Assembly (NCBI RefSeq): GCF_000158095.2
Contig: NZ_CM011002.1
Coordinates: forward strand, 2,637,203-2,701,202
DNA: 64,000 bases
Source of the DNA: Roseibium alexandrii DFL-11
Lineage (GTDB): Bacteria; Pseudomonadota; Alphaproteobacteria; Rhizobiales; Stappiaceae
Direction: 5' to 3'
Both the position numbers and the translations under genes were made by a program. Below are positions 13,496 through 24,221 of the stretch, one piece after another. The number at the start of each line of letters is the position of its first letter. The stretch's first letter is position 1. The notes under the pieces are model-generated. The model was not told where the DNA came from, did not search any database, and saw only the letters and a list, made by a program, of their open reading frames with translations.

Positions 13496-14521
13496 ATGAC
13501 CCCTTTCCGCAAGGCCAGGGAGGCCGACCGCGAAATGAGGATGAACGGCACAACTGAATTGCCCATTGAAACCGTGGCCGCCCGCCGGATAGAGCCCGCC
13601 GACGGCAATATTTATGTTTCTGACCAGGCAAATATGGTAAAGACATCCCGGCTTAACAGCGGCGAACAAGAGACGCTTCGCAACCTCATCCAAGGACCAG
13701 TAGCAGCAATGGCCGCAGAGCAATTATCTGGCCTGCTGGATGCAGGTCTTGAAACCGACATCCGCTACAAATCTGTCATCGCAGAAATGTACGAACGTAT
13801 CCTGGCACCAGATGCCCGCATAAAGGATCACCTTGCCTTTCTGGACGGGGAAGTGCGCTCCAGGTTCAAATCAAATGGCAACCCGGTAGCACTTCCGCCC
13901 ACCGCTATGAAAGTCATGCTTTTAGAAGCGGTTGCGCGCGAACTGGGCAAGAACTGGAGCTGCGATGCGGCCAGTTTCATCGATGTCACGATCGCATCAG
14001 CCCGGCTGCAAGCCATTGCTCAAGCTCTCACTACGGAAGCTGCGCGGGACCGCTCTGGATCGACAGCACCGTTCGCCGTCATCTTTCTGCCCGTTGATGA
14101 ACAGCACAGCTTGATGTCTTACCTCACAGGTGCCCTTTTTCAGGCGCTTGGATGGCAGCAACAGGTTGTTCCGCACGAATCACTGAGTGAATTTGAGTTT
14201 GCCAAAGTGGTGACCCAAGCCGATGTTGTGTGCATTGCGTGGAGCACCACATACCTCAAAAGCAACGCAATCCAACTGATTAACAACATCAGATTGTACT
14301 CCAGCCACAAAACACTACCCATAATTGCAGGTGGTGCAGCTACCCTTGATTTTATCAACCCCCTTGTGGAAATGGGCGTCGATTGTATTTGCGATAGTGC
14401 GCTTTCAGCGGTAAAAACCGCTGAGAGTTTCTACAATTTGGAAAAAATCAATCACTTTGCCGCGCAGGAAGGCCGCGATGCAAAAAGAAGAAAAAGCAGC
14501 ATCGATCGGCATTCCCAATGA
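13496..14521 (+). CDS. ppaA: PpaA/AerR-type B12-binding antirepressor of photosynthesis genes
   Basis: A 341-residue protein directly upstream of ppsR, the classical place of aerR/ppaA. A helical domain has ELGKNWSCDAASFIDVTIAS (about residues 149-168). A Rossmann-like B12-binding domain follows, with EQHSL (His204, at the position of the cobalamin axial ligand) and LPIIAGGAATL. In Rhodobacter, AerR binds light-exposed cobalamin and antagonises CrtJ/PpsR. The usual glycine two residues after the His-x segment is absent here (HSLM), which is noted separately. An alternative start at 13535 has GGGAGG upstream. The stop overlaps ppsR as ATGA. Confidence 0.9.
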   Translation: MTPFRKAREADREMRMNGTTELPIETVAARRIEPADGNIYVSDQANMVKTSRLNSGEQETLRNLIQGPVAAMAAEQLSGLLDAGLETDIRYKSVIAEMYERILAPDARIKDHLAFLDGEVRSRFKSNGNPVALPPTAMKVMLLEAVARELGKNWSCDAASFIDVTIASARLQAIAQALTTEAARDRSGSTAPFAVIFLPVDEQHSLMSYLTGALFQALGWQQQVVPHESLSEFEFAKVVTQADVVCIAWSTTYLKSNAIQLINNIRLYSSHKTLPIIAGGAATLDFINPLVEMGVDCICDSALSAVKTAESFYNLEKINHFAAQEGRDAKRRKSSIDRHSQ

Positions 14522-15954
14522 CCTCTCCCTCGACACATGGCGCGCTGCAAGATATCGGGGTTGGGACTGATTTGCTTGATTTGCTGGGTGCAGACGCCTT
14601 AACAGCCTTGATCGGATTGGGTGCCGATATCGTCGCATTAGTCGATGAAAAAGGTGTCGTAAAGCGCCTCCATTACCGCAACACCGATCTGGATGCGTAC
14701 GGTTTGTCGGCCATTGTCGGCAAGCAATTGCGCGACTGCGTGACCGTGGAATCCGTTCCGAAAATTGACGCCCTCCTTGCTCCGGCAAGAAAACGGCCGG
14801 CCCGTGGCTATCAGGTCAACCACAGCGCCAGCGGACAGCCCGATCTTCCGGTCGCCTACACGGCCAGCAGGACCGACGACTTTCCCTTCACCATTGTTGT
14901 CGGACACGAAATGCGGCAGCAGATGCTGGACCAGCAGCGTTTGGTGGAAGCGCAGATCGCAATGGAGGCCGACTACCGCGAACTTCGTCAGGCCGAAGCG
15001 CGGTACCGGACCGTCTTCAAGATGTCCGAAACAGCCCTTGTCGTAATGGACAGTGAAAAAAGGACAATTCTGGAAGCGAATACGGCAGCTGTGTCTCTCT
15101 TGACCGGCGCTTCTGGCAATCTAACCGGAAAGGCGATACGGGATCTCTTCAAGAAAGGAGACCGGGAGCGTCTTGCAGACGCGATCGGCGAAGCCCGCCA
15201 CAGCGGAGAACCTGTTCAGCTTGCCAACCTTCACAGCAGCGCTGGAAGTACGTTCGACGCAAAACTGCGCGCCTATAGAGAACACGGGACCACAAACCTG
15301 GTCATTACCCTTGAGAACTCCCAGGAAACGGACAGGGTTGATGCAAAACGCTCAAGCGATCGGCTCAATGGCACTCGTGTTGATCTGGAACTGCTGCCCG
15401 AAGCCGCGTTGACGATTGATGGTGAAGGCACTGTGTTGTCGGCAAATACCCTGTTTCTGGACCGTGTTCATGCACCGACCCTCAATCAGGTGGTCGGGCG
15501 GAATGTGTCAAACTGGCTCGGCAAATCCACCGTCGAATTGAGCGTTCTTTTCACCCGCGTCCGGGACGAAAAGACCCTCAGCGGGTTCTCTTCTGTTTTG
15601 ACCGATACGCTCGGCGAGAGTCAGGATGTCAGCCTCTCCGCCCATTACAACAAAGAGACCGACACCACACAGCTGCTGGTTATTCTTCAAGCGGCCAGTG
15701 CCGGTAAAATGACCTTGCCGCCGCCAGCGACAGCAGATCAGGCGGAGGGGTTTGCGAGCCTTGTTGGCAAGGTTCCCTTGAAGGAGCTGATCCGCGAGTC
15801 ACTGGACGTCGTTGAGCGGATCTGCATTGAAGCCGCCCTTGACCAGACCAACAACAACCGCGCCAGCGCGGCTGAGATCCTGGGTCTTTCCCGCCAAAGC
15901 CTCTACATCAAGTTGCGCCGGCACGGGCTCGAAAACTATCGTCCCGGCAAGTGA
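14518..15954 (+). CDS. ppsR: PpsR/CrtJ transcriptional repressor (PAS-PAS-HTH)
   Basis: A 478-residue regulator of the photosynthesis regulon. PAS-type domains cover about residues 25-130, 160-270 and 285-390. A Fis-type HTH lies at the C-terminus (NRASAAEILGLSRQSLYIKL, about residues 446-465). Only two cysteines are present, Cys74 and Cys436. Cys436 lies just before the HTH, like the redox cysteine Cys424 of R. sphaeroides PpsR, but no counterpart of Cys251 is present. It is translationally coupled to ppaA. Candidate target sites are at 13391, 16011 and 20550. Confidence 0.95.
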   Translation: MTSPSTHGALQDIGVGTDLLDLLGADALTALIGLGADIVALVDEKGVVKRLHYRNTDLDAYGLSAIVGKQLRDCVTVESVPKIDALLAPARKRPARGYQVNHSASGQPDLPVAYTASRTDDFPFTIVVGHEMRQQMLDQQRLVEAQIAMEADYRELRQAEARYRTVFKMSETALVVMDSEKRTILEANTAAVSLLTGASGNLTGKAIRDLFKKGDRERLADAIGEARHSGEPVQLANLHSSAGSTFDAKLRAYREHGTTNLVITLENSQETDRVDAKRSSDRLNGTRVDLELLPEAALTIDGEGTVLSANTLFLDRVHAPTLNQVVGRNVSNWLGKSTVELSVLFTRVRDEKTLSGFSSVLTDTLGESQDVSLSAHYNKETDTTQLLVILQAASAGKMTLPPPATADQAEGFASLVGKVPLKELIRESLDVVERICIEAALDQTNNNRASAAEILGLSRQSLYIKLRRHGLENYRPGK

Positions 15955-16010: not shown

Positions 16011-16028
16011 TGTCAATTTTAATTGACA
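16011..16028. promoter_or_regulatory. PpsR/CrtJ operator in front of bchG
   Basis: TGTCAATTTTAATTGACA is an exact TGT-N12-ACA site and an almost perfect palindrome, with arms GTGTCAAT and ATTGACAC around TTTA. It ends 21 bases before the chosen bchG start, so a bound repressor would cover the initiation region of the bchG-pucC2-bchP-orf89 operon. Confidence 0.88.
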
Positions 16029-16049
16029 CTTTTTGGAGCGCCGCCTAGC

Positions 16050-16970
16050 ATGTTTGGTATGGAACTCACCCGCCAAACACCACAAGCCAACTGGCCAATG
16101 CCCGGCGCAATCGTTGCTTTGCTCAAGCCGATCACCTGGTTTCCGCCAATGTGGGCCTATGCGTGCGGAGCAATTTCCACGGGCCATGGGATGGATGGGC
16201 GGCTGGGGTTCATCTTCCTCGGAGTTCTCTTGGCCGGGCCGCTTTTGTGCGGCACCAGCCAGGCGGTCAACGATTGGTTCGACAGACATGTTGATGCGAT
16301 CAACGAACCGGACCGGGTGATCCCCTCCGGCCGCATGCCGGGACAGTGGGGTCTTTATATCTCTATCATCATGTCGGCGCTCTCGCTTGTTGTCGCCGGA
16401 CTAATGGGCACGTTCATTTTTGCAGCAGCGCTTCTCGGTCTTGCCTTTGCCTGGGCCTACAGCGCGCCGCCATTCCGCTTCAAGCAAAACGGCTGGCTGG
16501 GCAATGGCGTTGTCGGCTTCAGTTACGAAACTTTACCTTGGCTGACAGCCGCGACCGCCATGACCGGCCTTGTGCCGGAAGCACCCATCTGGATCGTTGC
16601 TTTGCTCTATGGCCTTGGTGCCCATGGCATCCTGACGCTGAACGATTTCAAGGCGATCGCAGGCGACAAAGAAATGGGCATCCGGACCCTTCCCGTTCTG
16701 CATGGGGAACGATCGGCAGCGCTCATCGCTTGCGCCGTCATCACCGTGGCTCAGGCGGGTGTTGTCCTCACACTCTGGATGCTCAGTCTGCCGGTCTATG
16801 CCTTGGCAATTCTTTTTGTTCTGCTGCTGCAGATGGTCTGCATGGTTCGCTTTGCCCGTAATCCCGTGCGGTTCGCAGTCTGGTACTCGGCCATTGGCGT
16901 CGGGCTCTACGTCACAGGAATGATGATCACAGCATTTGGGCTGCGCACTCTGGTGCCAACCATCTCTTAG
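16050..16970 (+). CDS. bchG: Bacteriochlorophyll synthase (chlorophyllide esterification)
   Basis: A 306-residue UbiA-superfamily membrane prenyltransferase. The Mg-diphosphate motif NDWFDRHVDAINEPDR is at residues 74-89, and the second aspartate motif (DFKAIAGDKEMG) is in the C-terminal half. It attaches the geranylgeranyl tail to bacteriochlorophyllide a. A TTG start at 16023 would sit inside the PpsR palindrome and is unlikely. The ATG at 16050 with GGAG 12 bases upstream is chosen, and an ATG at 16059 is also possible. It is first in an operon with pucC2, bchP and orf89. Confidence 0.95.
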   Translation: MFGMELTRQTPQANWPMPGAIVALLKPITWFPPMWAYACGAISTGHGMDGRLGFIFLGVLLAGPLLCGTSQAVNDWFDRHVDAINEPDRVIPSGRMPGQWGLYISIIMSALSLVVAGLMGTFIFAAALLGLAFAWAYSAPPFRFKQNGWLGNGVVGFSYETLPWLTAATAMTGLVPEAPIWIVALLYGLGAHGILTLNDFKAIAGDKEMGIRTLPVLHGERSAALIACAVITVAQAGVVLTLWMLSLPVYALAILFVLLLQMVCMVRFARNPVRFAVWYSAIGVGLYVTGMMITAFGLRTLVPTIS

Positions 16971-16993
16971 GCTTTTTTAAAAGGGAGATCCCC

Positions 16994-18364
16994 ATGATCG
17001 GTCGGGGAGACGCCAATCAGCAAAACTCCGCAGCCGTGAAAGGGCTGAGTTGGGTCTCGATTTTACGTCTTGGGCTTGTACAGGCGTCACTGGGCGCCAT
17101 TGTGGTTCTCACCAACTCTACGCTGAACAGGGTCATGATCGTTGAGCTCGCCCTGGCAGCCGTCATTCCCGGCTTGCTCGTCGGGCTTCATTATGGCGTG
17201 CAGATCTCCAGACCCTTGTGGGGACACCGGTCGGATATCGGAAACTCGCGGACCCAGTGGATCTTGGGTGGCTTGGCGCTTCTCGCCCTAAGTGGGACAG
17301 CGGCCGCGGCAACAACGTTTCTTTTCGAGATCAGCTTTGCAGCTGGCTTGGCAGCGGCCGTTCTTGCCTATGCGCTTATCGGGGTCGGCATTGGCGCAAG
17401 CGGCACGTCCCTGCTCACATTGATTGCGACCAAAACGGCACCAGAACGCCGGGCCTCGGCAGCCACGATCACCTGGATGCTGATGATTGCCGGCATCGTG
17501 GTGACTTCAATTGTCACCGGCATCAACCTTGAGCCCTATTCGCATCTACGGCTTGTTACAGTCACCGCCCTCACCGGTGTTGTGGTTCTGGTTCTATCGG
17601 CCATCGCCGTTGCCGGAATTGAACGCAAACCAACCATGGTGGGCGAAACTGGCCGCGAGAAGCCGGGCAGTTTCCGCGAAAGTGTCCGTGAAGTCTGGAG
17701 CGATCCGGAAGCGCGCCTTTTGACGGTATTCATTTTCCTGTCGATGCTGGCCTATTCCACACAAGACCTGATCCTGGAACCGTTTGCCGGCTTGTTGTTC
17801 GGCATGTCTCCGGGCGAGACAACAAAGCTGTCCGGAACTCAGCACGGCGGTATCTTTGCAGGGATGGCACTTGTTGGGATCGCCGGATGGCTGTTTTCAA
17901 AACGCAAGCCCGGCCTGATGAAGATGTTCATCGTTACCGGCTGTGTCGGGTCGGGCATGGCGCTCACCGGCCTCGCCGTCTCGGCGTCCTTTGCACCCGC
18001 CTGGCCGCTTGAGATCAACATCTTTGTGCTCGGCTTCATGAATGGCGCTTTCGCCGTTGCGGCCATCGGCACCATGATGATCCTTGCCGGGGCTGGAAAA
18101 AAAGCCAACGAGGGTATGCGGATGGGGGTTTGGGGAGCGGCTCAGGCCATCTCTTTCGGCCTTGGCGGACTAGCCGGAACGATCGCTCTTACCCTTGGGC
18201 GATGGGCAACGGCCCAGGACAGTACCGCTTTTGCAATCGTCTTTTCAATGGAAGCCGTCCTGTTCCTCATGTCAGCTGCCATTGCGTTGCGGATCGGCGG
18301 CGGTCAAGTTGCCCAACCTCGTTTACCCGTACACCGGGAACCATCGGCAGTGCCCGCCGAATAG
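16994..18364 (+). CDS. PucC/BCH2-family membrane protein (second LhaA paralogue)
   Basis: A 456-residue, roughly 12-helix MFS-type protein of the PucC family, with TLNRVMIVELALAAVIPG near residue 48 and PLWGHRSDIGNS after it. It lies between bchG and bchP, the place of the bch2 (ORF428) gene of Rhodobacter. The family is linked to antenna assembly and pigment handling; the exact role of the bchG-bchP-linked member is not settled. GGGAG precedes the ATG. Downstream, bchP follows after 28 bases. Confidence 0.92.
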   Translation: MIGRGDANQQNSAAVKGLSWVSILRLGLVQASLGAIVVLTNSTLNRVMIVELALAAVIPGLLVGLHYGVQISRPLWGHRSDIGNSRTQWILGGLALLALSGTAAAATTFLFEISFAAGLAAAVLAYALIGVGIGASGTSLLTLIATKTAPERRASAATITWMLMIAGIVVTSIVTGINLEPYSHLRLVTVTALTGVVVLVLSAIAVAGIERKPTMVGETGREKPGSFRESVREVWSDPEARLLTVFIFLSMLAYSTQDLILEPFAGLLFGMSPGETTKLSGTQHGGIFAGMALVGIAGWLFSKRKPGLMKMFIVTGCVGSGMALTGLAVSASFAPAWPLEINIFVLGFMNGAFAVAAIGTMMILAGAGKKANEGMRMGVWGAAQAISFGLGGLAGTIALTLGRWATAQDSTAFAIVFSMEAVLFLMSAAIALRIGGGQVAQPRLPVHREPSAVPAE

Positions 18365-18392
18365 GCGCAAACCTCACACCAAGGAGCCTGCA

Positions 18393-19598
18393 ATGAAATC
18401 GAATTTTGATGTTGCTGTCATTGGAGGCGGTCCTTGCGGCGCAATTGCTGCGGAGCGCTTGGCGCAGTCCGATCATTCTGTTGTTTTGGTCGACCCGGAC
18501 AACAAGATCAAACCCTGTGGTGGGGCGATCCCGTCCCGCGCCCTGAAAGACTTCGAAATCTCTGAAGATCAGCTGGTGGCCCGGGCCAATGCGGCACGTG
18601 TCATTGCGCCGTCCGGGAACGCGGTGGAAATGCGGATTGGCGACATAGGATTTGTCGGCATGGTCGACCGGGAAACCTTTGATCCATATTTGCGTGCCCG
18701 TGCTGAACAGGCGGGAGCCCGATTTGTCAGAGGCAAGCTGGCTGGCATAGACACAGGACAGAACGGCAGCCTGGATCTGAAAGTGGACGGGACCGATCCG
18801 CACAATCCGGGAACTACAGAACACCTCAATGCGCGCATGGTAATCGGTGCCGATGGTGCCAATTCCGCTGTCAGGCGGTTGATGTTCCCTGCGAAGAAGA
18901 AGCCGCCTTACGTTTTTGCCTATCACGAGATCGTGGAAAGCCCGGCGGTTCCAGACCCAGACATCTTCCAGCGCGACCGCTGTGACGTTGTCTATGATGG
19001 CCGGATTTCTCCAGATTTCTACGGCTGGGTCTTCCCGCATGGGGGACAAACATCCGTCGGCTGCGGCTCTGCGGTCAAGGGGCATAACCTCAGGGATGCC
19101 ACGTCCGACTTGCGCGACCGTGCAGGGTTGACCGGACAACGGACGATCCGGCGCGAAGGGGCTCCACTGCCGCTCAAACCAATGCGGCGGTGGGACAATG
19201 GACAGAATGTCCTACTTGCCGGCGATGCTGCAGGCACAGTCGCCCCATCGTCAGGCGAAGGCATTTACTACGCAATGCTGTGTGGTAACCTGAGTGCAGA
19301 TGCCGTTGCTGAGTGCCTTGCAACCGGACAGGCATCGGCGCTGCGCCAGGCACGGCGAAGGTTCATGGCGGAGCATGGCCGTATCTTTTTCATTCTCGGC
19401 ATCATGCAAGCGGTCTGGTACCGCAGTGATGGGCTGCGGGAGCGGTTTGTCACAATGTGCGCCGATCCGGACGTCCAGCGCCTGACCTGGGAATCGTACC
19501 TCAACAAGCGTCTGGTCCGCCGTGATCCGCTCGGCCATATACGGGTCTTCTTCAAAGACCTCGCACAACTTGCAGGCCTGCCGGCCAGCCAGAAATGA
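18393..19598 (+). CDS. bchP: Geranylgeranyl (bacterio)chlorophyll reductase
   Basis: A 401-residue FAD-dependent reductase. The N-terminal dinucleotide fold is VAVIGGGPCGAIAAERLA, and the second FAD motif NVLLAGDAAGTVAPSSGEGI is near residue 275. It reduces the geranylgeranyl tail to phytyl. An open frame runs upstream to 18195, but the ATG at 18393 has AAGGAG 6 bases before it and begins exactly at the FAD fold. The stop overlaps the start of orf89 as ATGA. Confidence 0.96.
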   Translation: MKSNFDVAVIGGGPCGAIAAERLAQSDHSVVLVDPDNKIKPCGGAIPSRALKDFEISEDQLVARANAARVIAPSGNAVEMRIGDIGFVGMVDRETFDPYLRARAEQAGARFVRGKLAGIDTGQNGSLDLKVDGTDPHNPGTTEHLNARMVIGADGANSAVRRLMFPAKKKPPYVFAYHEIVESPAVPDPDIFQRDRCDVVYDGRISPDFYGWVFPHGGQTSVGCGSAVKGHNLRDATSDLRDRAGLTGQRTIRREGAPLPLKPMRRWDNGQNVLLAGDAAGTVAPSSGEGIYYAMLCGNLSADAVAECLATGQASALRQARRRFMAEHGRIFFILGIMQAVWYRSDGLRERFVTMCADPDVQRLTWESYLNKRLVRRDPLGHIRVFFKDLAQLAGLPASQK

Positions 19599-19864: not shown

Positions 19865-19894
19865 AGCGTTTCACGCGCTTATTGAAACGCTCTA
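19862..19894. terminator. Perfect 12-bp-arm palindrome spanning both stop codons of orf89 and tspO
   Basis: Arms TAGAGCGTTTCA and TGAAACGCTCTA match perfectly around a 9-base loop. There is no U-tract, so it is a candidate bidirectional terminator or 3'-end stabiliser rather than a proven one. The outer three bases on each side are the TAG stops of orf89 (plus) and tspO (minus). From memory, similar TAGAGCGTTT palindromes are common between genes in Hyphomicrobiales. Confidence 0.7.
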
Positions 19895-20338
19895 GGCCTC
19901 CGGATTCAGCTGCTGGACCGAGCGGTTAAGCAGTCCGGCAGTTGTTACCCAGGCAAGATAAGGCACGAAAAGCAGCGCCGCGAGTGGTGAAACGGGCCAC
20001 GCGGTGACAATAAACCCTGCAATTACCAGCCAGAGAAGACCGACATCAACAAGCGCCAGATCCATGCGCCGCAGTCCGAAGAACAACCAGGACCAAGCCG
20101 CATTGAGCACGATCTGCAAGGCCCAGAATACAATCGGCAATGACCAGCCGACCTTGGACCAAACACTCCAGCCAGCATAGGCGATCATGATGTAGAGAAG
20201 TGTCCAGACAACCGGGAAGGCCCAGTTCGGCGGCGTCCAACTTGGCTTGCGCAGTTCCTCATACCAAGGTCCTGGTTTGAAAACAGCGCCGCTGGCTGCA
20301 GCCAGAAAAACGACACCAATAAAAACTGCGATGGCCAT
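19892..20338 (-). CDS. tspO: TspO/MBR family tryptophan-rich sensory protein
   Basis: A 148-residue, five-helix outer-membrane-type protein of the TspO (CrtK, peripheral benzodiazepine receptor) family. It has the family motif WYEELRKPSWTPPNWAFPVV near residue 26 and many tryptophans. In R. sphaeroides, TspO binds tetrapyrroles and lowers photosynthesis gene expression. The ATG at 20338 has GGAG 6 bases upstream; a TTG one codon earlier was not used. It is convergent with the bchP operon and divergent from dxs. Confidence 0.95.
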   Translation of the reverse strand: MAIAVFIGVVFLAAASGAVFKPGPWYEELRKPSWTPPNWAFPVVWTLLYIMIAYAGWSVWSKVGWSLPIVFWALQIVLNAAWSWLFFGLRRMDLALVDVGLLWLVIAGFIVTAWPVSPLAALLFVPYLAWVTTAGLLNRSVQQLNPEA

Positions 20339-20515
20339 CAAAGGCTCCGTTCCGGGGATTTAGACCCTGCATTAGATAGAAGCGCGGGTTCCGCAATGAA
20401 GATCTGCGGAGCATTTGCGAACAGTCACACTGGATTAAAGGGCACCTCGCAGGAAAACAAGCCCACCGCCGCTTTGCTCATGACAGCCCGAACACGTGCC
20501 GCGACCCGCTTAAAC

Positions 20516-20549: not shown

Positions 20550-20567
20550 TGTAAAAAAAAGTTTACA
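20550..20567. promoter_or_regulatory. PpsR/CrtJ-type operator upstream of dxs
   Basis: TGTAAAAAAAAGTTTACA is an exact TGT-N12-ACA site. It sits inside a longer inverted repeat, with outer arms TGTGTAAA and TTTACACA, covering 20548-20569. It is about 115 bp before the dxs start and could also act on tspO. Confidence 0.72.
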
Positions 20568-20683
20568 CATCTATAAAGATCCTCGAGAATACCCTAACGA
20601 CATCAATGTCTACTGGTGGGCCTCGCAGCTGGCTGAAGCACTGCACCACCAGAGGGACGGAACCATGCGGTGGAGGAAACGCA

Positions 20684-22579
20684 ATGAGCTCCAACTCCAA
20701 CAGGACATCCACAACCCCATTGCTGGATACCATCCACACGCCAGGAGACCTGAAAAGCCTTAGTGATGGCGAACTCGCCCGGCTTGCTGATGAACTTCGG
20801 ACAGATGTTATTGATATCGTGTCAGAAACCGGCGGGCATCTGGGATCTGGTCTCGGCGTTGTCGAACTCACGGTCGCCCTCCACGCGGTGTTCGACACAC
20901 CGGAAGACACCCTGATTTGGGACGTAAGCCACCAGTGCTACCCGCACAAAGTCCTGACCGGCCGGCGCGACAGAATGCGGACCTTGCGCAAAAAGGACGG
21001 CCTTTCCGGTTTCACTAAACGCAGTGAAAGTCCGTACGATCCATTCGGCGCTGCCCACTCTTCCACATCGATCTCTGCCGGGCTTGGGTTCGCCGTAGCC
21101 CGGGATCTTGAAGGAAAGGACGGCCATGTCGTCTGTGTAATCGGGGACGGCGCGATGACAGCCGGGATGGCCTATGAGGGGTTCAACAACGCTGGCCACC
21201 TCAACAGCCGCATGATCGTCATTCTGAACGACAACAACATGTCGATTTCGCCGCCGACAGGCGCATTATCGGATCATCTCAACACACTCGCCCAATCCGA
21301 TACAGTCCAGCGGGAACGCAGCTTCTTTGAGAATATGGGATTTGCCTATCATGGCCCGGTCGACGGGCATGATATTCCAACTCTTTTGGCGACACTGCGC
21401 CACTTGAAAGAAGAAGGCACGGGCCCTGTCGTTTTGCATGCCATTACCCGCAAAGGTGCCGGCTATGTCCACGCGGAAGCGGCAAGCGACAAATATCATG
21501 GCGTTTCGAAGTTCGACGTTCCGTCTGGAAAACAGTCCAAGTCGGTTCCAAAGGCACCGAGCTACACCAAGGTCTTTGCCAACGCTTTGATTGAGGAAGC
21601 ACGGCAGGATGACCGGGTTATCGCCATCACCGCAGCCATGGCCGAGGGTACCGGTGTTGATCTGTTTGGTAAACAATATCCGGATCGCAGCTTCGATGTC
21701 GGGATCGCCGAACAACATGCCGTAACGTTTGCCGGAGGGCTTGCCGCCGGCGGCATGCGGCCGTTCTGCGCGATTTATTCCACCTTCCTGCAGCGTGGTT
21801 ATGATCAGGTCGTGCATGACATTGCCTTGCAAAACCTTCCCGTGCGCTTTGCCATTGATCGTGCAGGTCTTGTCGGTGCGGACGGCGCGACCCACGCCGG
21901 AGCATTCGACATAGGCTTCCTGGCAAATTTGCCGAACTTCACCGTGATGGCCGCCGCCGACGAGGCAGAACTGGTCAACATGGTCAAGACCGCGGCCGAA
22001 CATGACCTTGGACCTATTGCTTTCCGGTATCCGCGCGGTGAAGGAACGGGTGCACAGCTTCCCGTTCAACCGGTTGCCCTGCCGATCGGAAAGGGCCGGA
22101 TCGTCGACATCGGGCACACAGCCGCGCTGTTGTCTTTCGGCGGACGGCTTGAGCAATGTCTTGAAGCCCGAGCTCTCTTGTCGGCACTCGGCATATCCGT
22201 CACGGTCGCTGATGCCCGCTTTGCCAAACCACTCGATACGGAGCTGATTGAGGACCTCGTCGAGACCCATGAGTTGCTGGTGACAGTTGAAGAAGGTGCG
22301 ACCGGCGGCTTTGGGGCACTGGTTTTGCATCACCTTGCAGATAAAGGGTTACTGGATGGACGCTGCGGAGTGCGCACGATGACACTGCCCGATACGTTCA
22401 TTTCGCAAGCATCACCGTGGGAAATGTATAATGAAGCCGGGTTGAATGCGCGCCAGATCGCCGATCTCGTCCGTGTGACCCTGTCACGCATGGGTCACGG
22501 GTCACAGGTGACACTCGGTGGCGGGACAACTCGAATACAAGATCGCCCTTTATGGACGCACCACGCGGAGGACCGTTGA
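20684..22579 (+). CDS. dxs: 1-deoxy-D-xylulose-5-phosphate synthase
   Basis: A 631-residue thiamine-diphosphate enzyme that condenses pyruvate and glyceraldehyde 3-phosphate to DXP, the first step of the MEP isoprenoid pathway. Catalytic His52 is in [10 protein letters not shown], and the ThDP motif GDGAMTAG...NDN starts at residue 154. C-terminal transketolase domains follow. GGAGG lies 7 bases before the ATG at 20684, so a longer in-frame start at 20606 was not used. The PpsR-type site and location at the edge of the pigment cluster suggest a phototrophy-dedicated copy; whether another dxs exists elsewhere cannot be seen. Confidence 0.96.
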
Positions 22580-22702
22580 AGACGGGCAAAGATAATTTCG
22601 AAAACGAGTAGGTGATCTCAATTGGCGGGGGAAAGGTTGTATAGTACGGTCTTTTTGCTTGGAGGAGCTTGACCGCCTGGGCCGAGACATCGGGAGGGGG
22701 AA

Positions 22703-23632
22703 TTGGCCAACAATTACGACGGCGAACAACCGACGGAAAATAACAAGACACCGTCGACACTTGCTGACAATGGCCTGACGATAACGGCAGATGAAACTGC
22801 CAATTTGTCCGTACAGGATCTCACTGTTTTGGAGAGGTCTGTGCGCGGGCAAGTGTCCGGTTTGGTTGGCGCACTGCACCCTAACATCAAAAACCGAACG
22901 TTGAACGGCACCTCGGTGTCGCGTCTTGATCTCCGTTTGCATCCCGAATTGGATGAGCGAGCACGCCAGATGCCGTCCATGGATGTGGCAATTTCCTATC
23001 GGGTGCCATTCCTGAAGGCGCTGATCGACCCCGATCCGCGCCATCACCGAGACCTCATCGAAGAGCTCGTACAGACAAATATCCCTCTTCAGACACTCGC
23101 AATTCATCTCCTGTGCCCCATCGCTACGGAGCTCGGCAATTACTGGTGTAACGACGATGCCGATTTCATGCAGGTCGCGGTGGCTTCGACACGGTTGAGC
23201 AATATTGTCAATCACCTGACCCATGCCGGACCTCGGCCGTCCGTTCCAAAAACCGAAAAACGTATCCTTCTGGCACGCTCGCGCGGGACAAAACATACAT
23301 TAGGCGTCACCCTTGTCAGAATGTGTTTCCAGGACTTGGGATGGATAGTCGATGGCGGAGCCGATATGGAAATCGGTGACACAATGTATATGCGCCTCTC
23401 TGCCCGGTCTTATGATTTGCTTGGCCTTTCGGTCGGACGGCTTGAAGAGGCCATTGATTGCAAGGAAGCCATCGAGCGCTCCCGATCGGAGATTGTTACG
23501 GAAAACACCAAGATCGTGATTGGCGGCGCGGCCGTGCTCACACATCCGGAAGGTTTTCAGAACACTGGTGCCGACTTCGTCACGCGTTCTGCGTTGGAGG
23601 CCATCACTTTGGCCGAACAAGCCGTTGGATGA
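22703..23632 (+). CDS. Second PpaA/AerR-like B12-binding regulator
   Basis: A 309-residue protein homologous in layout to the PpaA at 13496. A disordered N-terminus of about 40 residues is followed by a helical domain with TELGNYWCNDDADFMQVAVA (about residues 142-161), matching the PpaA ELG-x2-W-x2-D-x3-F-x2-V pattern. A B12-binding domain then has KHTLG (His198) and KIVIGGAAVL. It starts with TTG at 22703, preceded by GGGAGGGGG; no ATG is available before the conserved region. It follows dxs after 123 bases, with a possible own promoter. AerR-type proteins sense light through cobalamin and antagonise PpsR; that this one does so is inference. Confidence 0.85.
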   Translation: MANNYDGEQPTENNKTPSTLADNGLTITADETANLSVQDLTVLERSVRGQVSGLVGALHPNIKNRTLNGTSVSRLDLRLHPELDERARQMPSMDVAISYRVPFLKALIDPDPRHHRDLIEELVQTNIPLQTLAIHLLCPIATELGNYWCNDDADFMQVAVASTRLSNIVNHLTHAGPRPSVPKTEKRILLARSRGTKHTLGVTLVRMCFQDLGWIVDGGADMEIGDTMYMRLSARSYDLLGLSVGRLEEAIDCKEAIERSRSEIVTENTKIVIGGAAVLTHPEGFQNTGADFVTRSALEAITLAEQAVG

Positions 23633-23831
23633 TCTCGTCCTGAACTGAAAAATCCATTGCATCACTCAACGGCAGCTTTGCCAACTAAAGGCCTGCTTGG
23701 CGACTCAAGCGTTGCCAGGTAACCAATGCGTCCCAAACCAAATCTCTCAGCGCCTCTAAAATGTCCCTTTTGTTCTCAAAAGGGGAGAGGCTCAGCCGTC
23801 CAACACGCTTTACACGCTGCAGGCATGTCGG

Positions 23832-24221
23832 ATGTCGGACACTCGAGAAGAAGAAGAACAGAAAAGAGACCCATCGGTGACTACCGGTTTCACAGACGGC
23901 AAAGGCCCTGCAACCAAACTGATCAAAATGTGCCTCGGCCTCGAACCGCATGGCGAGCAGGAAGTCATTGAACTCGGCCATGCGCTCTACCGGCAGTGGG
24001 AACAGTTTTACCGGCCCACCAGCGGGACTATCGCGAAAACGCCGGACGAGATCCGGCAGATTACGAACCGCATGCGCGATTTTGTGACAAGCCTTAGGGT
24101 TTTGCAGTCCCATGGCGCACTCCCGCACCCCGACGACCCCGATCCTGGCACCCCCTACCCGGCTTTGAGCCTGGGCTTGATTAATCAGTGGTGGCATGGC
24201 ATCGGCGACTGGAAGGCATAA
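23832..24221 (+). CDS. Hypothetical protein (orf129)
   Basis: A 129-residue, mostly helical soluble protein with an acidic N-terminus, a KLIKMCLGLEPHGEQEVIEL segment, a central basic helix and a C-terminal INQWWHGIGDW. I do not recognise a family. The reading frame is supported by the strong terminator that begins right at its stop codon. An open frame on the opposite strand (23685-24281) is judged a shadow. It follows the AerR-like gene in the same direction after 199 bp. Confidence 0.65.
   Translation: MSDTREEEEQKRDPSVTTGFTDGKGPATKLIKMCLGLEPHGEQEVIELGHALYRQWEQFYRPTSGTIAKTPDEIRQITNRMRDFVTSLRVLQSHGALPHPDDPDPGTPYPALSLGLINQWWHGIGDWKA

Follow-up and report, generated by a model that had tools for sequence, protein, structure and literature searches.

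Two AerR/PpaA-family genes in the photosynthesis gene cluster of Roseibium alexandrii DFL-11: the dxs-linked copy as a putative cobalamin-binding co-regulator of PpsR

Comparative genomic analysis of Roseibium alexandrii DFL-11 revealed two AerR/PpaA-family genes in its photosynthesis gene cluster, one linked to ppsR (ppaA) and one to dxs (aerR2). With moderate confidence, AerR2 is taken to be a cobalamin-binding co-regulator of PpsR produced from a PpsR-controlled dxs operon, giving a feedback loop in which the two copies would share the work of one AerR. The genome comprises 5,462,832 bases on 3 contigs and the window, i.e., the whole stretch of 64,000 nucleotides analyzed, lies inside the photosynthesis gene cluster and holds the following features:

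Upstream of ppaA, reverse strand: puhC, puhB, puhA, bchM, bchL, bchB, bchN, and bchF
13496..14521, forward strand: ppaA, the ppsR-linked partner copy (341 aa), with ExHSLM where D/ExHxxG is usual
14518..15954, forward strand: ppsR, CrtJ-type repressor (TIGR02040, 309.7 bits, cut-off 275.4)
16011..16028, no strand: TGTCAATTTTAATTGACA, second strict palindrome of the dxs-upstream type, between ppsR and bchG
16023..19598, forward strand: bchG, a pucC-like gene, and bchP, between ppsR and tspO
19892..20341, reverse strand: tspO-like gene, divergent from dxs
20550..20567, no strand: TGTAAAAAAAAGTTTACA, TGT-N12-ACA palindrome of the CrtJ/PpsR operator type, before dxs
20562..20590, forward strand: sigma-70-like promoter before dxs, its -35 element TTTACA being the 3' end of the palindrome
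20606..22579, forward strand: dxs, photosynthesis-cluster copy
22660..22702, forward strand: conserved leader directly 5' of aerR2 with ribosome site GGGAGGGGG, in 9/9 aligned close-kin loci
22703..23632, forward strand: aerR2, the dxs-linked AerR/PpaA-family gene (309 aa, TTG start)

Past bchF the order is ppaA, ppsR, bchG, the pucC-like gene, and bchP on the forward strand, tspO on the reverse strand, and dxs and aerR2 again on the forward strand. The names dxs, pucC-like, bchP, and tspO are those we take these window genes to bear, and the family search gave no match for the pucC-like gene. The start codon of aerR2 falls 123 nt past dxs and 6.7 kb downstream of ppsR, i.e., away from the ppsR-adjacent position that is usual for AerR/PpaA genes without defining the family.

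The initial annotation had described an AerR/PpaA-like regulator beside dxs, with the signature ELG-x2-W-x2-D-x3-F-x2-V and a ligand histidine common to both window copies, and this description held. The open reading frame is present, its best solved relative by sequence is Rhodobacter capsulatus AerR (structure 7te2; 2e-13, runner-up 9e-4), and the window PpaA also matched 7te2 (6e-9). The signature occurs in both copies, and His198 of AerR2 (HTLG) and His204 of PpaA (HSLM) occupy the same alignment column as R. capsulatus AerR His145. Pairwise alignment of AerR2 with the window PpaA (26% over 179 aa, E 3e-13) indicates true but distant relatives. Structural models and profile searches, proposed by the same annotation, likewise returned AerR as the top relative by fold and by sequence. 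The predicted models had mean pLDDT values of 76 (AerR2) and 73 (PpaA), with values <50 in the first 35 and 50 residues, respectively; AerR was the top fold match for both, the AerR2 model matching the AerR chain with a fold E of 1.9e-10 and TM of 0.76. Pfam scored the B12-binding domain of AerR2 at 30.6 bits, below the cut-off of 32.1, with a weak helical B12-binding cap (E 0.003), and gave no match at 0.01 for the window PpaA (13496-14521). No MerR-type DNA-binding domain, bilin domain, or BLUF match was identified by Pfam in AerR2.

Three sequence sets were compared: 32 dxs-linked copies, their 27 ppsR-linked partners, and 35 ordinary ppsR-linked copies from genomes or records in which no dxs-linked copy was found. 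A profile of the 35 ordinary copies scored 145.8 bits for AerR2, 137.7 for the AerR fragment (178 aa), and 91.0 for the window PpaA; median scores were 146 bits for the dxs-linked set (116-157) and 100 for the partners (79-128), with overlapping ranges. Median identity to the ordinary copies was low for both (24.4% dxs-linked, 21.6% partners). When the genome itself was searched with AerR2, nothing was returned beyond the two copies and one corrinoid-type protein (E 0.0015). Membership of AerR2 in the AerR/PpaA family was supported by sequence and by fold, and a MerR/LitR or methyltransferase corrinoid identity was ruled out by Pfam, the NCBIfam scores, and the 7te2 match.

Phylogenetic analysis of both copies, also put forward in the initial annotation, placed the dxs-linked sequences in one clade. 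In a quick tree of 108 sequences, one of them wrongly labeled, a single branch set apart 32/32 dxs-linked copies (SH-aLRT 98) and another the 27 partners (SH-aLRT 99); the 35 ordinary copies did not form one group (8 changes), and the R. capsulatus AerR fragment fell among them, beside L152. A careful tree of 52 chosen sequences gave support of 100/99 for the dxs-linked copies (16/16) and 100/100 for 13 partners, with weak support (90/53) for 23 ordinary copies. Both trees were built without an outgroup (no CarH or methyltransferase sequences) and their long branches meet, so that neither a sister pair among the three groups nor a duplication inside this lineage is to be read from them. Neither tree included the ppsR-linked copies L201-L203 (G036, G058, and G011) or the named PpaA proteins of Cereibacter sphaeroides and Dinoroseobacter shibae, and the dxs-linked set did not include the L095 aerR2, whose frame is broken. 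Extra AerR-like proteins (370-398 aa frames) were identified in four Rhodobacteraceae-type genomes (L187 5644-6837, L150, L151, and L197), forming one clade with Glu for the Phe cap and no dxs or ppsR linkage. A very divergent third AerR-like gene was also found in G058 (L058 4042-5028), apart from ppsR and dxs.

The link of AerR2 to phototrophy was borne out by its distribution. An AerR2 match was found in 18/87 genomes of the window's family, and exactly the same 18 genomes carry photosynthetic reaction-centre genes. PpsR was detected in 17 of them, the one without it being a genome of 85% completeness. In all 18, the window included, dxs adjoins aerR2 on the same strand, and in seven of them 41-44 kb separate the pair from ppsR or its partner. 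A copy at the position near ppsR was identified in 17/18, in G011 as a weak partial match only and in G037 next to bchF at a contig end, ppsR being on a different contig. A scan of named genomes gave 22 loci, comprising 20 AerR2-like loci (seven from the same records as the family genomes) and two ppsR-linked copies, with hits in genomes including Labrenzia, Roseibium, Nitratireductor alexandrii, Rhizobium, Ciceribacter, Azospirillum, and Niveispirillum. The gene dxs was upstream in 19 of the 20 AerR2-like loci, and ppaA and ppsR were both upstream in 16, the other four being cut by contig ends; the dxs-aerR2 pair is thus also present in records of Nitratireductor and of Rhizobium-like and Azospirillum-like type. 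In Rhizobium sp. G21 (L095 9722-10984), the conserved position lacks dxs, and the aerR2 sequence next to tspO is divided between two reading frames.

Wider sampling identified an AerR-like match in 26/385 genomes of a class-wide draw, of which four carried the dxs-linked type (own genome, G237, G277, and G373) and 21 of the remaining 22 a ppsR-linked copy. An order-wide search with a narrow profile found 3/397 genomes; because known members, G036 among them, fell below its strict cut-off, this count is no measure of spread. In a Rhodobacteraceae-type draw, 43/249 genomes matched the AerR fragment and 12 of these 43 had two matches, and for 11 of the 35 ordinary copies the genome holds another AerR-like gene elsewhere, not beside dxs. 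Two copies per genome are hence not unique; what is distinctive is the dxs-linked clade with its constant partner.

The cobalamin-site columns were compared with the SAerR ligands as given in the available text of PMC9144470. The equivalents of the lower-ligand His145, of Trp94, and of Gly219-Gly220 were conserved in every sequence of the three sets (32/32 dxs-linked, 27/27 partners, 35/35 ordinary), and that of Phe101 in all but one partner (26/27). The D/E-x-H-x-x-G motif showed opposite losses: its glycine was present in 32/32 dxs-linked, 6/27 partner, and 34/35 ordinary copies, being replaced by Met, Ala, or Thr in 21 partners, and the acidic residue two before the histidine, usual in ordinary AerR/PpaA copies but not a stated family definition, in 5/32, 27/27, and 32/35, respectively, with Thr196 at this position in the window AerR2. 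Acid and glycine occur together in 5/32, 6/27, and 31/35, and the Arg88 equivalent in 1/32, 27/27, and 31/35. The proposal of the dxs-linked copy as the more typical cobalamin binder was upheld only in part: the glycine and the profile scores of the two window copies favored it, and the losses of the acidic residue and Arg88 countered the view that it is simply the more typical of the two. As each copy is short of a different part of a motif that is whole in ordinary copies, the pattern is that expected from one divided function and suggests one sensing job divided between two genes, the residues themselves being compatible with either copy as the B12 sensor.

These counts also bear on two alternatives. 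The first, which we regard as unlikely, is that cobalamin binding and action on PpsR are the same in the two copies, aerR2 serving as a dosage or redundancy backup with unsplit roles. The ligand histidine, Trp cap, and Gly-Gly pair of all 27 partners are consistent with it, as are the requirement of D. shibae PpaA for B12 in PpsR binding, reported in the portion of PMC10890935 available, and the second AerR-like genes that lack dxs linkage in 12 of the 43 matching Rhodobacteraceae-type genomes; it is disfavored by the divergence of two copies that are kept together in separate clades and differ in opposite motif halves. The second, more improbable, reverses the roles, with cobalamin sensing assigned to the ppsR-linked PpaA, in keeping with its position, and AerR2 acting as a B12-independent or differently tuned modulator. 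The invariant acid and Arg88 equivalent of the partners, both rare in AerR2, agree with such a reversal, against which stand the substituted glycine in most partners and their lower median score with the ordinary profile.

A further histidine, His59, lies at the end of the N-terminal segment of AerR2, after a predicted helix, and was conserved in 19/19 closer AerR2 sequences and 0/9 partners in one alignment; in LAerR, His10 is described as preceding its helix (PMC9144470, in part). A loose N-terminal-His pattern matched 25/32 dxs-linked, 0/27 partner, and 22/35 ordinary copies, with none of seven more distant dxs-linked sequences matching, and is weak evidence because it was chosen after looking and matched elsewhere in L091. 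An AppA-like heme site in AerR2 was ruled out, as its histidine is not shifted and aligns directly with His145.

The region upstream of dxs is consistent with control by PpsR. CrtJ binds TGT-N12-ACA (PMC9144470, in part), and the palindrome was assigned to PpsR from this published consensus only. With small changes, it occurs before dxs in 25 of the 27 dxs-aerR2 loci tested, including pairs away from ppsR, with no near match in the other two; the tested set excludes loci truncated close to dxs as well as several additional members. A total of 37 TGT-N12-ACA sites compares with 2.8 expected from the loci themselves, although the loci are kin and so not independent. The overlapping sigma-70-like promoter is weak alone, as the consensus scan of the region found 3 against 2.4 expected. 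The strict form TGTNAAN6TTNACA has eight places in the genome and one for the reversed control: before dxs, in the ppsR-bchG gap, four (2.589-2.625 Mb) no more than 42 kb from reaction-centre genes, before a bchE-like ORF (1447391), and at 230469. It was missing before the second, more distant dxs of the genome outside the window (G000:C1:2736750-2738624) and before the bchP-adjacent dxs of the ordinary lineage L141. Upstream of ppaA, 9/14 loci had no TGT-N12-ACA; of the other five, L080 had a good palindrome and four had poor ones. The bchE-like ORF is presumably a B12 radical-SAM gene, a label read from its sequence alone (G000:C1:1447391-1449100, L004); the PpsR-type palindrome is directly 5' of it and its frame is seemingly broken near the 5' end. 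The true start of the photosynthesis-cluster dxs may be the ATG at 20684, later than the annotated 20606.

A suggested split of duties between ring genes and isoprenoid supply found no evidence, dxs itself carrying the PpsR-type palindrome. A related alternative, held to be slightly less probable again than reversed roles, is that AerR2 acts on a partner other than PpsR, e.g., as a B12-gated regulator of isoprenoid supply via dxs or its product. The constancy of dxs next to aerR2 in the 18 family genomes, even far from ppsR, and in nearly all named loci speaks for it. It is opposed by the known AerR/PpaA family members, which act on PpsR/CrtJ according to the available portions of PMC6199135, PMC10890935, and PMC9144470, by the occurrence of AerR2 within the window's family only alongside the reaction centre, by the lack of a DNA-binding domain in the Pfam results, and by L095, where the split aerR2 frame persists by tspO at a place without dxs.

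The start of aerR2 was identified as TTG in the window and eight other family genomes, behind a GGGAG(G/T)GGG ribosome site, and likewise in Nitratireductor L079, so that kin support the predicted TTG start; ATG stands at this position in 14 other copies compared (Rhizobium/Azospirillum type, G011, G237, and G277). Only the ribosome-site end of the 43-nt leader is clearly kept in Rhizobium/Azospirillum-type sequences. A CCGA-loop-TCGG inverted repeat with a variable loop was observed in the leader of the nine close-kin loci, but a conserved hairpin was rejected since it fails in the Rhizobium/Azospirillum-type sequences. A cobalamin riboswitch before aerR2 was also dropped, as an Rfam search of the window gave no match at gathering level. 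No terminator-like site was identified in the 123-nt dxs-aerR2 gap and, from this and the gap length, dxs and aerR2 are probably co-transcribed.

Against two close relatives, aerR2 had a dN/dS of 0.09-0.10, indicating a gene under constraint, and a dS of 0.94-0.97 versus 0.16-0.33 for dxs, ppsR, ppaA, and bchG. Nucleotide identity was 78-85% over about 22660-23660, stopping near the gene end, and 86-96% in most flanking 200-base steps; other short dips (76-85%) were at about 19860, 20460, 24260, and 26860. The high dS with the local identity drop suggests a likely gene-sized replacement of aerR2 from another lineage by recombination. Past aerR2, a 129-aa ORF (23832-24221) was 92% alike in the three closest relatives, with no counterpart in the other loci compared and no Pfam or NCBIfam match. 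A remnant or methyltransferase-type corrinoid protein with no photosynthesis role is a largely refuted and very improbable reading of AerR2, its weak corrinoid hits (MtbC/MtgC, 20.1 bits versus an NCBIfam cut-off of 350) being far outweighed by purifying selection, invariant site residues, and AerR as top match by sequence and fold.

The preferred reading, of AerR2 as a cobalamin-binding PpsR co-regulator, gives the following mechanism. The dxs operon promoter, with its PpsR-type operator, would drive aerR2, and PpsR, the presumed target of both copies, would repress dxs-aerR2. AerR2, with a predicted helical cap over a Rossmann-type domain, would hold B12 via His198 as lower ligand; the N-terminal helix and His59 could perhaps offer an upper ligand once light removes the adenosyl or methyl group. 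AerR2 would then relieve or redirect PpsR, and the resulting double-negative loop might sharpen the switch to pigment synthesis with isoprenoid supply tied in. The ppsR-linked partner, with its HxxG glycine mostly lost, may act on the same target with altered or no B12 dependence, the two copies together sharing what one AerR does elsewhere. We infer cobalamin binding, PpsR contact, co-transcription, and PpsR control of dxs-aerR2, and hence the loop.

More speculatively, and with doubt, the two genes could correspond to the long and short AerR isoforms of R. capsulatus with opposite effects on CrtJ. AerR2 would be the B12 light-sensing, long-type arm, driving its own synthesis in the PpsR-controlled dxs operon, PpaA would be a B12-independent short-type or redox arm, and Roseibium-like, rhizobial, and azospirillar phototrophs would share the module by cluster transfer.

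The arrangement bears on how PpsR/CrtJ integrates light, oxygen, and B12. The R. capsulatus forms, which act oppositely from a crtJ-linked AerR gene, are hard to separate genetically according to the available text of PMC6199135. Here two versions seemingly occupy two genes, separately removable, in carriers of bacteriochlorophyll genes, and the conservation of the PpsR-type palindrome upstream of dxs opens the proposed feedback loop to a direct test. The cobalamin sensor should not be named by ppsR adjacency alone. No dxs-linked AerR copy appeared in the titles or abstract starts among the literature matches listed, most subscription literature being outside this scope, so this is no proof of absence; the available text of the DFL-11 genome paper (PMC3764935) does not mention PpaA, AerR, or B12, and the passages returned by term searches of papers on photosynthesis clusters and AAP bacteria held no second AerR copy.

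AerR2 resembles R. capsulatus AerR (LAerR/SAerR, 7te2) in fold, lower-ligand His145, Trp94/Phe101 cap, Gly219-Gly220, and location in a photosynthesis gene cluster. In R. capsulatus, the long and short forms arise from one crtJ-linked gene with an internal CTG start (PMC6199135, in part), compared to two diverged genes here, of which one neighbors dxs. A scan of AerR2 for a second, internal start like that of SAerR gave no more than short ribosome-site matches, at residues 43 and 47. The PpaA proteins of C. sphaeroides and D. shibae belong to the same family, with a PpsR antirepressor role reported in the available text of PMC10890935, but are ppsR-linked, whereas AerR2 is dxs-linked and in a separate clade. 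AppA of C. sphaeroides (SCHIC domain) is likewise a second AerR-like PpsR regulator per cell, with a weak sequence match (0.005) and a fold match; it has a BLUF domain and a heme-ligand histidine shifted by two (PMC9144470 and PMC10890935, in part), in contrast to AerR2 with no BLUF domain and an unshifted histidine. In R. sphaeroides, the short form is suggested by the authors of PMC6199135, in the text available, to have been replaced by AppA through gene duplication, and by analogy the two-gene arrangement could be another such case. The CarH/LitR and photocobilin B12 photoreceptors have the B12-binding domain fold in common with AerR2 and differ by their MerR DNA-binding and bilin domains.
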